Positions 2,823 through 31,728 of a stretch of 33,900 bases of DNA are shown piece by piece. The DNA comes from Lachnospiraceae bacterium. Its GTDB lineage: Bacteria; Bacillota; Clostridia; Lachnospirales; Lachnospiraceae. The DNA is taken from assembly GCA_016287095.1 (NCBI GenBank), contig JAEEVK010000023.1:1-33900 (forward strand), read 5' to 3'. Numbering within the stretch: position 1 is the first letter of the stretch; the number at the start of each line of letters is the position of its first letter. The notes beneath the pieces were generated by a model that did no database searches, was not told the origin of the DNA, and worked only from the letters and a program-made list of their open reading frames with translations. A program made the translations under genes and the position numbers.

Positions 2823-3011
2823 ATGTTTAATTTATTCCAGAAAAAAACAAAGCTTGTTGTATACAATGAAGCACAGAAAGATGAACTCGTAGAGAAATTC
2901 GAGCAGAAGAAAGTTGCCTATAAGCTGAGAATGATCGAGGATGAATTCTCAATCGGTAAATCGGTATATGAATTCACTCTTGCACAGTCAGATTTGGCAA
3001 AAGCAAGTTAA
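2823..3011 (+). CDS. Small hypothetical protein, 62 aa
   Basis: Begins MFNLFQKKTKLVVYNEAQKD; charged, no signal peptide or membrane span. The ATG at 2823 follows AAGGAGG at proper spacing; an in-frame ATG at 2778 has no such site. The pattern of an LVVYN beta strand, a charged helix and a YKLRMIEDEF strand weakly resembles small DUF2007-like putative signal-transducing proteins, but I do not truly recognise it. It is divergent from the AraC regulator and shares the repeat-containing upstream region, so it may be that regulator's target. One of the few plus-strand genes here. Confidence 0.7.
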   Translation: MFNLFQKKTKLVVYNEAQKDELVEKFEQKKVAYKLRMIEDEFSIGKSVYEFTLAQSDLAKAS

Positions 3012-3028: not shown

Positions 3029-3175
3029 TTATTTACTTACGACACCCTTAACAACAAATTTTCTCTTTGCTATAAGTTCTCTATCCGTTTTATCGGGAAC
3101 AAAGACCTCTTTTTGTAATTCCCCGCATGTTCCGATGTCTCGGACGATTAGGAACGTGGCTATGGCGGTACCATG
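3029..3175 (-). pseudogene. Possible gene remnant beside structured repeat copy A
   Basis: A minus-strand frame of about 45 codons (IATFLIVRDIGTCGELQKEV, ending VKGVVSK then stop) begins right where repeat copy A ends. The frame continues into the repeat, giving no credible start. The composition looks protein-like but matches nothing I recognise. It may be the 3' tail of a gene whose front was replaced by the repeat, or chance. Confidence 0.25.
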
Positions 3176-3176
3176 C

Positions 3177-3332
3177 GTCAAAGTCACCTCGAAAACGCCT
3201 TCAGCGTTTCCTCGGTAACAAAACGATGCTCCGCATCTCATTTCAGTCGGGGCTTGAACCCCGCCTGAAACGAAGATCTCTCCCCACCTTCGCTACGCTA
3301 AGAGGTGGGGGATATCTTCTGTTTTGTTATAT
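3177..3332 (-). repeat. 156-bp structured dispersed repeat, copy A
   Basis: Copy A matches 29968-30123 at 154 of 156 positions. Read on the minus strand it folds as four hairpins: a long stem (GAAGAT...ATCTTC with CCCCACCT/AGGTGGGG inside), TTTCAG...CTGAAA with a GGGG/CCCC core, GATGC-GGA-GCATC, and GTTACC-AAACGC/GCGTTT-GGTGAC. AACAAAAC near the 5' end can pair with GTTTTGTT, closing the first three hairpins. No usable reading frame. This suggests an ORF-less transposon-derived RNA or MITE. Orientation is chosen by the fold and is not certain. Confidence 0.85.
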
Positions 3333-3413
3333 TTCGTTTTAAACACCAGCTTATACTATAGTATAATTAAAGCCTAATATCAACATATTTTTCTCAGTTA
3401 TTTACATATTATT

Positions 3414-3456
3414 CTAAAAAAATTGCGAAAGATCAAGGTCCTTCTTGATCTTTCGC
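3414..3456 (-). terminator. Rho-independent terminator of the lipoprotein gene
   Basis: Perfect 13-bp hairpin GCGAAAGATCAAG (3425-3437) / CTTGATCTTTCGC (3444-3456), followed on the minus strand by AATTTTTTT. It begins about 20 bp past the stop of the lipoprotein gene. The rest of 3333-3424 is AT-rich and shows nothing else. Confidence 0.85.
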
Positions 3457-3477
3457 TCTCGGTTAGAATATCCTATA

Positions 3478-3771
3478 CTATTGTATTTCCGCGACTTCTA
3501 CACCTTTTGTTTTGGTCCTGTTTTCACCCGGGTCACTTACTACCGCACCGCCGTATAATTTCTTGTCTGTAGCCGGCTTAGCCTTATCCCCGTCGGGTAC
3601 TTCGTCTCCGGGTTTTAATGTACCCACTTTAGTTCCTTTCTTATCCGATTCGCTGACAGAATTGGTTTCTTTGGGCGAATCATCCTTCTTGTCGCCTCCG
3701 CATGCGGTAAGTGAAAGAACAAGTACAAGTATTATGATAAATACTATGCTTCTGGTGATCCTCTTTTTCAT
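3478..3771 (-). CDS. Small lipoprotein, 97 aa
   Basis: Starts MKKRITRSIVFIIILVLVLS and reaches a lipobox LTAC with C24, so it should be lipidated and anchored outside the membrane. The mature 73 residues are Lys/Asp/Glu/Ser-rich and low in complexity (GGDKKDDSPKETNSVSESDK), suggesting a disordered surface protein; no enzymatic motif is visible. GGAGGTTCAAT precedes the ATG. A strong terminator follows, so it is the last or only gene of its transcript. Function unknown. Confidence 0.85.
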   Translation of the reverse strand: MKKRITRSIVFIIILVLVLSLTACGGDKKDDSPKETNSVSESDKKGTKVGTLKPGDEVPDGDKAKPATDKKLYGGAVVSDPGENRTKTKGVEVAEIQ

Positions 3772-3912
3772 ATTGAACCTCCTGATATCCCATAAATTGT
3801 TTTTTTATGTTTCTGAAGATTAGACGAGAGTGATATCCTGTCGGTTCCATATTCAAAATTTACCTTTCCTCCTGCTCTTTATCAGCATCGTTTTCTTCAT
3901 TCATAGTTATTG

Positions 3913-28620: not shown

Positions 28621-29104
28621 TTAGTCCCCCATCATGTTCTGCTTCTTTTTTATGCATTAAGTGTATGCCAATATGGCCAACACCTAGTATTATAACTGCT
28701 ATTCCAAGTATTATGTTCTTCCCGTAAACCGCCAAAAGAGCGTATGCTGCAACCGGGAGTGTTGCTCCGGCAACAGGGATTCCAAGAATGCTGCTGTAAA
28801 AATCCTTCATTGTTCTTTTGCTTAAGAAATACCTTGCCCAATATATCTCATACAGTATCATTAGGGAAAATGCACCGACCAGCCACCATTCCCAGCCCGA
28901 CCATGATTTTATATTGAAATCAGAAAATATCAACACAATACATGAAACAAGTACTTCTCCTATTCTCTCCAATAATAGCAGATATTTGTTCTCGTTTACA
29001 ACATATTTTTCATAATCAACCGGCTGATTTTTTGTCCATATGATATTTGGTACCATCAGCATTATAAGGAAGATCAATCCCACATATGAAAACCCGAAAT
29101 GCAT
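28613..29104 (-). CDS. Membrane protein, uncharacterised
   Basis: 163 aa with about five hydrophobic spans (YVGLIFLIMLMVPNIIW, then LVSCIVLIFSDF, WLVGAFSLMILYEIYWARYF, ATLPVAAYALLAVYG and IILGIAVIILGVGHIGIHL) and a soluble loop with KNQPVDYEKYVVNENKYL. The C-terminus is cytoplasmic and charged (HLMHKKEAEHDGGLNG). No known motif is recognised. TGATG joins it to the ferredoxin gene with one shared base, so it is coupled. It is placed between the ferredoxin-type membrane protein and its probable regulator; it may be a partner of the former or the target of the stress sensed. Confidence 0.8.
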   Translation of the reverse strand: MHFGFSYVGLIFLIMLMVPNIIWTKNQPVDYEKYVVNENKYLLLLERIGEVLVSCIVLIFSDFNIKSWSGWEWWLVGAFSLMILYEIYWARYFLSKRTMKDFYSSILGIPVAGATLPVAAYALLAVYGKNIILGIAVIILGVGHIGIHLMHKKEAEHDGGLNG

Positions 29105-29841
29105 CAGTTTTTCCTCCGAGTCATCTTATATTTTAAAACCTTCTTAGGGCAGGTATCTACGCATGCGCCGCATTGAATGCACTCTGTACATTTATCATTC
29201 TTCCCTTCAGAAATCAATGTTTTTACATCCAGTCCCATCGGACAGGACTTGCTACACCTTCCACACGCTACACATTTTTCCTTATCAGCCTCAATATGAA
29301 GCTGTGGAATATGAAGCAGCCTTCCTACCGAACTGCCTACTACCATAAACGGAGCCATCCAGCAGATATAATGACACGTAGCTCTGCGTCCGTGTATCAG
29401 TGCCGGCAGCACCAGAAGTAATATAACTCCATAATACATCACATAATTATATATACTCGTTATGGAAATTCCATGGTCCGTCATGTAAAACGGATCAACG
29501 GTAACTTCATTTTTCCCCAAGATGAAGGTAACAACAATGGCTATAATCCATATTATCCAGATTACATACTTTATCTTGTCTCTCCATCCCTGTTTAGCAG
29601 GAGCGGGATTGCCTGCAGAAATGCATTCCTGAAGTCCGCCTGCGGGACAGAGATAGCCACACCATACCCTTCCTAAAAACATCGAAAGCACGAACATCGA
29701 TACAAATACGATAAAACTTCCGTTCATGATATGCTCAGAAGCAGCCTGAATGATAAGGTATGGCGAAAAATACCATATGGTAACAGGAAAAAGCAAAAAA
29801 GAAATAATCAATATGGTTTTTCTAATCCTTTGTCGCATCAT
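29104..29841 (-). CDS. NapH-like membrane 4Fe-4S ferredoxin protein
   Basis: 245 aa. Several membrane spans enclose two cysteine motifs, RVWCGYLCPAGGLQEC and TCHYICWMAPFM (NapH/NosR type, PF12801), followed by a ferredoxin domain with CVACGRCSKSCPMG and CTECIQCGACVDTCP. It likely carries electrons across or along the membrane for a reductase not encoded in the window. GGAG precedes the first of two adjacent ATGs. It is the first gene of the operon with the membrane protein and PadR. Confidence 0.92.
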   Translation of the reverse strand: MMRQRIRKTILIISFLLFPVTIWYFSPYLIIQAASEHIMNGSFIVFVSMFVLSMFLGRVWCGYLCPAGGLQECISAGNPAPAKQGWRDKIKYVIWIIWIIAIVVTFILGKNEVTVDPFYMTDHGISITSIYNYVMYYGVILLLVLPALIHGRRATCHYICWMAPFMVVGSSVGRLLHIPQLHIEADKEKCVACGRCSKSCPMGLDVKTLISEGKNDKCTECIQCGACVDTCPKKVLKYKMTRRKN

Positions 29842-29923: not shown

Positions 29924-29952
29924 TGGACCATGGGGACGGGGTTCCTGGTCCA
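29924..29952 (+). repeat. 29-nt REP-like palindrome, copy 1
   Basis: Palindromic ends TGGACCA...TGGTCCA around GGGGACGGGG. Related to the copies at 30130-30158 and 31700-31728, but opposite in orientation. It follows the A-rich stretch upstream of the NapH-like operon. Confidence 0.8.
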
Positions 29953-29967
29953 AAAAAACTTAGATTA

Positions 29968-30123
29968 GTCAAAGTCACCTCGAAAACGCTTTCAGCGTTT
30001 CCTCGGTAACAAAACGATGCTCCGCATCTCATTTCAGTCGGGGCTTGAACCCCGCCTGAAACGAAGATCTCCCCCCACCTTCGCTACGCTAAGAGGTGGG
30101 GGATATCTTCTGTTTTGTTATAT
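29968..30123 (-). repeat. 156-bp structured dispersed repeat, copy B
   Basis: Same 156 bp as 3177-3332 except for two substitutions: one in the loop of hairpin GTTACC...GGTGAC (loop TGAAA versus TGAAG), one in the run next to the long stem. It is flanked by two 29-nt palindromes in inverted orientation. It lies in the 309-bp gap between the YoaP-like gene and the NapH-like operon. No coding potential. Confidence 0.85.
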
Positions 30124-30129
30124 GTAAAA

Positions 30130-30158
30130 TGGACCACTAACCCCGTCCCTCTAGTCCA
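30130..30158 (-). repeat. 29-nt REP-like palindrome, copy 2
   Basis: TGGACCA...TAGTCCA on the plus strand. It overlaps the 3' end of the YoaP-like gene: on the minus strand the repeat's first bases TGGACTAG give its last codon GAC and stop TAG. Compared with copy 3, the C-to-T change that breaks the palindrome is the one that creates the stop. Confidence 0.8.
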
Positions 30159-30900
30159 CCCCTGCCAGTTTCAAGAATTTCGTATCATTCATCTGCTCAT
30201 TTGTAACATAAACCCCGTCATGGAACAAAGCATAATTTGTTATCGGAGACGGAGCATTCTGCGCCTCTTCCCTGCTCTCGATGTGTATAGCCTTAAAAGG
30301 TATTCCATTGTCCTTTGCAGTCTGTTCCACTATCGGTACATACTTTGCATTGAACGGACACTGACTCGTATAGTATAAAACATATCCCATCTCATCTGTA
30401 TGGGGATGCTTTGCACATTCTTTAAATCTCGGAGCCTCAACTGCTTTTTCAAAAGGCAGATACCATAACTGAATACCATTATCCGCTTCATCGCATACCG
30501 TAAAGCCTTTATATTTCAGGAACTTTGGATCAGCCAGAAACGGCTTTTTCTTCGCTGCGCACAAGATGCAAAGTCCCTTTTTCTCTTTTTTCTTGCTATC
30601 CTCGATACAGGCCGCAAGCAGATCGGTGGAATATCCATGCCCCTTGAAAGAACCTGATACCCACAGGCAGTCTATATACATATATCCGTCTGCCTCTATC
30701 GGAACCCATGCATTTTCTGCGGGTATATACTCTATAAAGCATTTGCCTCTTTCAACACTTTTTAGGAAAACAAGACCTTCATCAAATCTATCTGCGAGCC
30801 ATGCCTTTTTTGAAGACACCTGTACATCCTTATTATTTGAAATTGCACAGCAGATATGTTCCTTTTCCAGATTTTCCTTTGTAACTTTTATATATTCCAT
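30151..30900 (-). CDS. YoaP-like acetyltransferase with thioredoxin-like tail
   Basis: 249 aa. The N-terminal GNAT fold has YIDCLWVSGSFKGHGYSTDL (the strand 4 and CoA loop, KGHGYS). The C-terminal part VLYYTSQCPFNAKYVPIVEQ is the YoaP-like thioredoxin-fold domain. YoaP proteins are stress or antibiotic-response acetyltransferases of unknown substrate. It starts 4 bp after the GyrI-like gene. The final residues and stop (GVD then TAG) lie in a REP-like palindrome, so the natural C-terminus may be trimmed. Confidence 0.85.
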   Translation of the reverse strand: MEYIKVTKENLEKEHICCAISNNKDVQVSSKKAWLADRFDEGLVFLKSVERGKCFIEYIPAENAWVPIEADGYMYIDCLWVSGSFKGHGYSTDLLAACIEDSKKKEKKGLCILCAAKKKPFLADPKFLKYKGFTVCDEADNGIQLWYLPFEKAVEAPRFKECAKHPHTDEMGYVLYYTSQCPFNAKYVPIVEQTAKDNGIPFKAIHIESREEAQNAPSPITNYALFHDGVYVTNEQMNDTKFLKLAGVD

Positions 30901-30904
30901 ACTC

Positions 30905-31618
30905 TTATCCCTTCTTCCTTATAGGATGCCTGATGACAGTTTTTAACTTCTCGTGAGCAACCTTTCTGGCATCACTTAAATATATCTCATGATGAAGACG
31001 CTTATATGTTATATCCAATTCATAGCCCTGTTGTTCCATAAACTCATGCATTATAGCAACCGTCGCAGGCTCATCATCATATGACCCTATATGCATACAC
31101 TGGACACACAAGCCTTCATCATAGGTTAAGAACTCCACCTTCGAAAAATCTGTCTTTTTCTTCTTAGAGGCCTCTTCCACAGCCCAATCAAAATCCGCTT
31201 TTGTTACAAAATCAGGCAGTCTGATTACTGATATCCAGTTAAAATCTTCTTTACGACTATAATCAATCCCAAAGGTGGTTCCCTGCGGGTAATGCCCCCT
31301 CCCTTCGGTCGGCGGCTGGTCGGTCGTCGCATTGATATTCGACTCCGTCGTGGCGGCGACCTGCCACCAGAAACCTTCCAGTGGGGGAACTACATAATCA
31401 AAATATCCATCTATCCTATGGTCGCCTTTCTTACTCATCTTGATAGTAAAGGCTATGCCATATAAAAGCCCGATCGCAGCTTTGTAATCACCGGTTTCGT
31501 CATTCGGGTCACCCATTCCTCGAACCGCGATATAATTCATCTTGGGAACTGTAATGATTGCCGGTTTATCTTTTGGCATATAAAACTCTTTATATTCCTT
31601 CTTAAAATCAAATGCCAT
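30905..31618 (-). CDS. GyrI-like small-molecule binding protein with an internal insertion
   Basis: 237 aa. Family features are KPAIITVPKMNYIAVRGMGDPND, YKAAIGLLYGIAFTIKMSKK, GIDYSRKEDFNWISVIRLPD and LCVQCMHIGSYDDEPATV (GyrI/TipA-S effector-binding fold). Relatives I recall pass almost directly from WWQ/WWM to GIDYS; here about 28 residues (VAATTESNINATTDQPPTEG and GRGHYPQGTTF) intervene, coded by a GC-rich stretch. The start at 31618 uses AAGGAG; an upstream GTG three codons earlier lacks that spacing. YoaP-like follows 4 bp downstream. Confidence 0.85.
   Translation of the reverse strand: MAFDFKKEYKEFYMPKDKPAIITVPKMNYIAVRGMGDPNDETGDYKAAIGLLYGIAFTIKMSKKGDHRIDGYFDYVVPPLEGFWWQVAATTESNINATTDQPPTEGRGHYPQGTTFGIDYSRKEDFNWISVIRLPDFVTKADFDWAVEEASKKKKTDFSKVEFLTYDEGLCVQCMHIGSYDDEPATVAIMHEFMEQQGYELDITYKRLHHEIYLSDARKVAHEKLKTVIRHPIRKKG
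31274..31368 (-). repeat. GC-rich in-frame insertion, possible palindromic coding element
   Basis: About 95 bp beginning GGTGG and ending CCACC, roughly two thirds G+C in AT-richer surroundings, with GGTCGG/GGTCGGTCG motifs. It keeps the reading frame of the GyrI-like gene and codes for a Thr/Asn/Pro-rich loop. The boundaries are approximate. Confidence 0.5.
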
Positions 31619-31653
31619 CTTTCTCACTCCTTAAGCCGTTTTACTCTCTCGTG

Positions 31654-31699: not shown

Positions 31700-31728
31700 T
31701 GGACCACTAACCCCGTCCCCCTGGTCCA
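31700..31728 (-). repeat. 29-nt REP-like palindrome, copy 3
   Basis: TGGACCA...TGGTCCA with core CCCCGTCCCC (plus strand). On the minus strand it encodes the DUF3795 protein's final FGPGGRG and its TAG stop. Confidence 0.85.

Follow-up and report, generated by a model that had tools for sequence, protein, structure and literature searches.

HEARO/omega-RNAs are structured elements that lack an open reading frame (ORF) and are tied to the IS200/IS605 world, and the BOX and bcr1-type repeats of other Firmicutes are small, modular or structured, and intergenic. Palindrome-associated transposable elements (PATEs), a non-autonomous form of IS200/IS605, have been described in Haloquadratum (accessible part of PMC3119063). 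According to the available portion of PMC5371812, IS200/IS605 elements prefer the lagging-strand template and their orientation recapitulates replication. REP sequences are marked by a GT[AG]G tetranucleotide at the hairpin foot (PMC6006769, accessible text). The repeat analyzed here is probably a non-autonomous mobile DNA that works like an IS200/IS605-family element cut down to its ends, in the manner of a PATE, and it is assigned to no particular IS family. No description of it was found among the results listed from the open-access literature, searched by repeat type, by host group and with strings taken from the element itself.

The window spans the full length of contig C144 (33,900 bp), which belongs to a MAG of 3.39 Mb in 217 contigs (G000). 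The original prediction had reported a block at 3177-3332 matching 29968-30123 at 154 of 156 positions, and this was confirmed: the two 156-nt blocks are 99% identical, lie 26,791 bp apart and form the sole direct repeat of at least 40 nt in a repeat scan of the window, the second copy being recovered with E 3.5e-74 in a DNA search of the same MAG. The flanks are indeed unrelated on reading both sites, the block starts with GTCA and ends with TATAT as described, and no ORF of at least 90 aa overlaps either block, in line with the claimed absence of a coding frame. The extent of the block had to be revised: the 156-nt match is real, but comparison of many copies gives a mobile unit of 150 nt, followed by TTATA, which is the target, and by a last T that is coincidental. 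The features at the two sites are as follows.

3177-3326, minus strand: first copy of the mobile unit, in its 150-nt long form, with the window minus strand as the proposed active (R) strand
3327-3331, minus strand: target pentanucleotide TATAA (TTATA on the plus strand) of copy 1, adjoining the 5' end of the R strand
3478-3771, minus strand: 97-aa ORF that precedes copy 1 on the R strand, without a Pfam match
2823-3011, plus strand: 62-aa ORF without a Pfam match, on the other side of copy 1
29968-30117, minus strand: second copy of the mobile unit, likewise in the 150-nt long form, from the repeat and the many-copy comparison
30118-30122, minus strand: target pentanucleotide TATAA of copy 2, from sequence reading and the target count in long copies
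30151-30900, minus strand: gene for a YoaP-like/GNAT protein, its 3' end upstream of copy 2 on the R strand
29104-29841, minus strand: gene for a 4Fe-4S protein, following copy 2 in the R-strand direction
29925-29951, no strand assigned: GGACC..GGGGACGGGG..GGTCC repeat, REP-like and of another family, left of copy 2 and inverted relative to 30131-30157
30131-30157, no strand assigned: counterpart of that REP-like repeat in inverted orientation, to the right of copy 2

The REP-like pair framing copy 2 resembles repeats at a RAYT locus of the genus (L218), and a further GGGACGGGG lies on the window minus strand at 31711. A GA-cis RNA (RF02987, 52.6 bits) was found at 31284-31365 on the minus strand, inside the called frame of a GyrI-like ORF (30905-31627), the true start of which may be further downstream than called. 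Elsewhere in the same MAG, locus L183 (G000:C32:60000-62600) matches the genes surrounding copy 2 at about 90% identity and has another insert in place, with neither the element nor the REPs. A small frame in this insert is presumably TfoX-like, and the relation of L183 to the copy 2 locus is one of paralogy or of mixed strains. Locus L171 (G009:C80:1-710), from the genome of another species, is 99% identical to 3190-3900 of the window, and its contig starts inside the element.

The two blocks belong to a dispersed family. In the MAG of the window there were 17 matches in a DNA search, 2 full and 15 partial, and all of the partial ones were confined to block positions 1-71 or 106-156. At E<=0.001 the element was detected in 15 of 80 genomes (own and relatives). 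Fourteen of these are among the 24 genomes of the genus itself, counting the own one, and the fifteenth comes from another genus in the family. An exact pattern scan of the genome collection returned 103 named contig stretches, all from Lachnospiraceae MAGs and, where a source is stated, from sheep rumen or goat omasum. Over whole genomes, the 3'-end motif (at most 2 mismatches; 0 in all six genomes for the reversed-pattern control) was counted 96 times in G012, 89 in G016, 62 in G007, 15 in G009, and 8 each in G000 and G006. The check for further copies, proposed with a two-copy local duplication as the possible refutation, has therefore turned up many more. Cargo of plasmids or phages was considered and rejected, with no match in 72,556 plasmid or 50,697 phage records. 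Several contigs of these MAGs start or stop inside the element, and thus it breaks assemblies. In another genus (G034; L031 and L043), a repeat has two core hairpins in common with the long form, and 7 of the 10 matches listed there lie no more than 400 nt from a contig start. The genus also harbors a second dispersed palindromic family, TGTCATTCTGAGC...GGATGACA, at L012, L039, L070, and L128.

The 147 copies with a complete left end in the loci collected, which are phylogenetically non-independent, comprised 39 long copies, 49 short copies with a located 5' junction, 37 short-like copies without one, and 22 that lacked a complete far end, mostly by running off a contig end. The long unit measures 150 nt in 26 of the 39 and 146-151 nt in the others. 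The short form is about 71 nt and lacks the core with its two hairpins. One junction, CAGAA or TAGAA, is common to 24 of the 49 short copies, and the rest have CAGA (4), CA or TA (4), CAGAAGA (2) or single variants. The short form is best read as the long form with the core deleted, and the varied junctions fit repeated core deletions, although point changes may account for some. Short copies were located by a pattern in which TTTTG must be followed by TTA or TTT, or TTTTA by TTA, which leaves the long copies as the only unbiased evidence on the target.

On the R strand the unit reads TATAA^CAAAAC...TTTGAC. TATAA precedes the R-strand unit (TTATA following it on the opposite strand) in 35 of the 39 long copies, against a background of 0.46% of positions per strand in element-free intergenic regions, and such a fixed target of 4-6 nt at one end is a feature of IS200/IS605-type elements. 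None of the 39 long copies has the same 5-mer on both sides, that is, a target duplication. The copy alignment gives ends GTCAAAG... and ...GTTTTG, without terminal inverted repeats. Seven distinct tandem junctions read TTTTG|GTCAA, five of them with an upstream copy recognizable by eye, and TTATA is retained between the copies in none of the seven. TTATA is thus target and not element, because the second copy entered between the first copy and its TTATA. At L137, a long copy was read head-on inside an older short copy at TATAA^. The claimed recent mobility is supported by the dispersed copies and by these tandem and nested insertions. Some copies are probably old, since L040 (G003) and L014 (G000) appear to have one insertion in common, with flanks 73% identical.

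Copy L128 interrupts the second repeat family at a point through which three unoccupied relatives run uninterrupted, with TTATA (L039), TTAAA (L012), and TTTGA (L070) at that point; the base left of the L128 junction differs from these relatives. In the one close orthologous pair (96-97% identity), G009 is occupied and the G016 site is reduced, with TTTTGTTA left, which would fit a longer target as well as a microhomology deletion involving two TTCTA repeats. At four other element-free orthologous sites the junction could not be read through the divergence (window copy 2 compared with G000:C32 and with G009:C207, L025 with L059, and L097 with L096). Two further ideas on site choice were dropped. 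Group IIC introns insert behind terminator hairpins, and a strong stem abuts 12 of 153 left flanks here (5 of 153 when shifted by 15 nt and 2 of 765 shuffled), too few for a rule. Insertion behind promoter -10 boxes, an idea drawn from few copies, was abandoned after 86 pooled flanks gave no clear -35 signal.

The minus strand of the first block is strongly structured. With 20 nt added on each side (3157-3352), its fold had a z-score of -7.7 as DNA and -7.2 as RNA, and 0 of 200 shuffles folded as well. Four minus-strand hairpins had been proposed, three of them enclosed by AACAAAAC/GTTTTGTT. This arrangement appears in the DNA fold and in the consensus of the 39 long copies, but the enclosing stem is missing from the minimum-energy RNA fold of copy 1 with its flanks and from the RNAalifold result for 38 short copies, which contains only the 3' hairpin, with double changes in 3 of 14 pairs. 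The hairpins, for which a failure to covary had been named as a ground for refutation, do covary in the 39 long copies. Standard pairs make up 98.2% of pair cells, and compensated double changes occur at 8 pairs in 19 cells, compared with 2.2 pairs and 4.2 cells in shuffles and at most 4 and 4 with the partner slid. The outer stem covaries too, from C-G to U-A in 7 copies. Derived G-T (G-U) cells on the R strand exceed A-C cells by 25:11 in long and 26:10 in short copies, an asymmetry that is weaker when counted by pair (13:10 and 13:9). This mild excess fits a folded R strand, as DNA or RNA. The G-U pairs of the consensus were discounted as strand evidence, because a structure prediction on one strand can show only those. 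Near-terminal palindromes and a length too short for a transposase, both of them PATE traits, are found in this element.

The orientation of the element is linked to GC skew and to the regional gene strand. ORFs for the neighbor, target-supply, regional-strand, and GC-skew counts were called by a crude greedy caller, which beside copy 1 chose a 103-aa frame on the plus strand, although the 97-aa ORF on the minus strand is likelier. After the 22 far-end-incomplete copies of the 147 and then 24 of the remaining 125 at locus edges were dropped, 101 copies could be classified (17 of the 125 overlapped a called frame); the R strand is sense to both neighbors in 71, to one in 26, and to none in 4. 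Copies thus counted lie mostly between co-directional genes. In 201 element-free co-directional intergenic regions TATAA occurs 162 times in sense and 109 times in antisense, and the element is sense in 71 of 75 cases against the 60% expected from this supply (p 6e-12), a bias that target supply fails to explain. Local transcription was our first reading and was given up after the regional agreement and the GC skew had been seen. Among divergent or convergent sites, 17 have a clear regional majority strand (9 more had none) and the element agrees with it at all 17; overall the agreement is 55 of 59. Five copies have two neighbors that both run against the majority: 2 of these copies side with the region and 3 with the neighbors, and R-strand GC skew remains positive in the latter 3. 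In loci of at least 5 kb, R-strand GC skew is above 0 in 71 of 77 locus-orientations (p 3e-15), and it stays positive at opposite-strand genes in 25 of 31. The minus strand of the window is G-rich (plus-strand skew -0.189). The R strand therefore appears to point with replication rather than with local transcription, the direction being read by proxy from GC skew and gene strand. By the usual skew rule it would have leading-strand sense and be the lagging-strand template.

Copies often stand right behind a stop codon, the TAA of TATAA being that stop. Of 58 upstream-sense copies, 15 have their junction precisely at the stop codon of the upstream gene, as compared with 10 of 162 sense TATAA sites in element-free intergenic regions (Fisher p 1.6e-4), probably because such insertions spare both genes.

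Taken together, the target, the lack of duplication, the hairpins, and the replication-linked orientation are the signature of single-strand (IS200/IS605-type) transposition, and we therefore read the repeat as a new PATE-like non-autonomous family. The hairpins close to the two ends would fold while the R (minus) strand is in single-stranded form, as it is when serving as lagging-strand template; a Y1-type (HUH) transposase supplied in trans would excise the element as single-stranded DNA; and the element would be pasted 3' of TATAA on another lagging-strand template without duplicating the target. The proposal of an ORF-less IS605-type MITE is supported as to this way of working (TATAA, no duplication, subterminal hairpins, replication-linked orientation), but the terminal inverted repeats of a strict MITE are absent, and no cognate transposase was found.

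The search for the mobilizing enzyme covered all 24 genus genomes and gave 25 loci with Y1 transposases (PF01797), which were divided, on the strength of the match and the length of the frame, into 12 IS200-type, 12 RAYT-type, and 1 fragment. IS200-type loci occur in G000, G006, G009, G012, G018, and G022, and RAYT-type loci in 10 genomes. The element has no significant match at any of these 25 loci or at any of the 18 TnpB loci of the same genomes, and whole-element alignment to the first 39 of the 43 loci gave a best score of 41 against a null maximum of 46, none above the shuffled range. No end-motif pair at the spacing of an autonomous parent was seen by eye among the matches listed, in one list without most of G016 and all of G009 and another without part of G007 and all of G006, G009, and G016. 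The profile of the first hairpin matches 19 nt of the left end of an IS200 element in G018 (L217), on the tnpA strand and upstream of that gene, with 11.6 bits (E 0.024) against 8.0 bits for the best match in a 700-kb control; the L217 match is suggestive, a lead and not proof. The IS200 of the own genome (L149/L193) scored 3.4 bits, no better than the control. IS200 presence is not associated with the element (5 of 14 element-bearing and 1 of 10 element-free genomes, p 0.34, uncorrected for phylogeny or completeness). G016, which is 97% complete and has an end-motif count of 89, contains a RAYT and no IS200-type TnpA, a point against the main reading. Two TnpB loci, L194 and L195, are 99% identical over 1400 nt between G010 and G007, and were probably shared recently between them.

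The enzyme could also be of another kind. A REP-type repeat moved by a RAYT (TnpA-REP) transposase instead of an IS200-type TnpA would agree with the distribution of RAYT-type genes. In the genus, 9 of the 14 genomes with the element have such a gene, against 1 of the 10 without it (Fisher p 0.013, uncorrected for phylogeny or completeness). Among genomes of 90% completeness or more, the figures are 5 of 5 and 1 of 5 (p 0.048, uncorrected for phylogeny). However, none of the 12 RAYT-type loci carries the element up to about 1.5 kb on each side, and all 11 examined (L155 left out) have other repeats, mostly of GGGGTC or GGGGACGG types. By eye there is no GT[AG]G at the hairpin foot either; in the long form, GTAG is seen only in the apical loop of its first hairpin. 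We give RAYT mobilization only a slim chance. The RAYT-type transposases of the genus are diverse, at about 30-82% identity (L218 left out, where the frame picked was not RAYT). An RNA-mobilized element, that is, an ORF-less group II intron, a HEARO/omega-RNA or another retroelement, would likewise lack a target duplication, and it would suit a structured strand that is mostly sense to its neighbors and an element sequence complementary to the target junction (TAACAAAAC/GTTTTGTTA). We regard it as very improbable: no family among the 4227 of Rfam matched at the gathering score, which bears out the earlier failure to name a family, and only three irrelevant matches arose at E up to 10, so that a known RNA family was rejected. 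The suggested kinship with HEARO/omega-RNA finds no support in the same search or at the 18 TnpB loci, to which the check for linkage was confined and where the element is absent. A simple local duplication of a one-off sequence, to which only two near-identical copies in the window and MAG would point, is already refuted by the many copies at unrelated sites in own and related genomes and has next to no probability.

Selection on RNA is the other matter to be weighed. A minus-strand transcript kept as a useful intercistronic or leader structure, acting in mRNA ends, processing or translation coupling, would agree with an R strand that is sense to at least one neighbor in 97 of 101 copies and to both in 71, with the enrichment at upstream stop codons (15 of 58 against 10 of 162), and with the surplus of derived G-U over A-C cells (25:11 and 26:10, less clear by pair). 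But divergent and convergent sites, where one neighbor is in sense either way, still follow the region in 17 of 17 cases, the GC skew indicates replication, and G-T pairing would equally favor the R strand as folded single-stranded DNA. We therefore consider selected RNA unlikely as the explanation of the repeat, while a functional role as a new structured RNA is possible for it. It is likewise rather unlikely that a mobile element lands preferentially behind stop codons in sense, with hairpins serving both as a lagging-strand transposition signal and as a selected intercistronic mRNA element, and is moved by something other than a known IS200 TnpA. As orientation here seems to be led by replication, sense orientation alone is a poor ground for calling repeats regulatory RNAs. 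The PATE-like reading adds to the Lachnospiraceae a high-copy, gene-less family with a replication-linked orientation signature, and its more than 100 insertion points can be used for testing site choice in single-strand transposition.

Among known systems, BOX and bcr1-type repeats are similar in being small, modular or structured, and intergenic, a likeness of description and not of compared sequences. Unlike HEARO/omega-RNA, the element has no Rfam match and does not lie at the 18 TnpB loci, and unlike a group II intron it is not recognized by the Rfam intron models. A strict MITE has terminal inverted repeats and often a target duplication, and neither was seen here (duplications 0 of 39). 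With REP and REPIN-BIME repeats and their RAYTs the family has in common many-copy intergenic palindromes and the presence of Y1-type enzymes in the genus; in contrast to them, it lacks GT[AG]G at the hairpin foot, is not beside the RAYT genes found, and is larger, with defined ends and a target. The resemblance to IS200/IS605 elements such as IS608 and ISDra2, as far as the accessible parts of the sources describe them, includes insertion without duplication beside a fixed short target that adjoins one end, hairpins in subterminal position, and an orientation that follows replication (PMC5371812, PMC6006769, PMC3119063). The element differs from IS608 and ISDra2 in having neither tnpA nor tnpB, in its target TATAA, and in that no guide sequences were identified. 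PATEs, in the available part of their description, are archaeal and of other sequence, so that they are likened here by description and not by compared sequences, and their palindromes match IS605-type elements, where the present family offers one suggestive match (L217) (PMC3119063). Like PATEs in that same text, the Lachnospiraceae element is too short for a transposase, has near-terminal palindromes without terminal inverted repeats, makes no target duplication, and exists in many copies with core-deleted short versions (PMC3119063).
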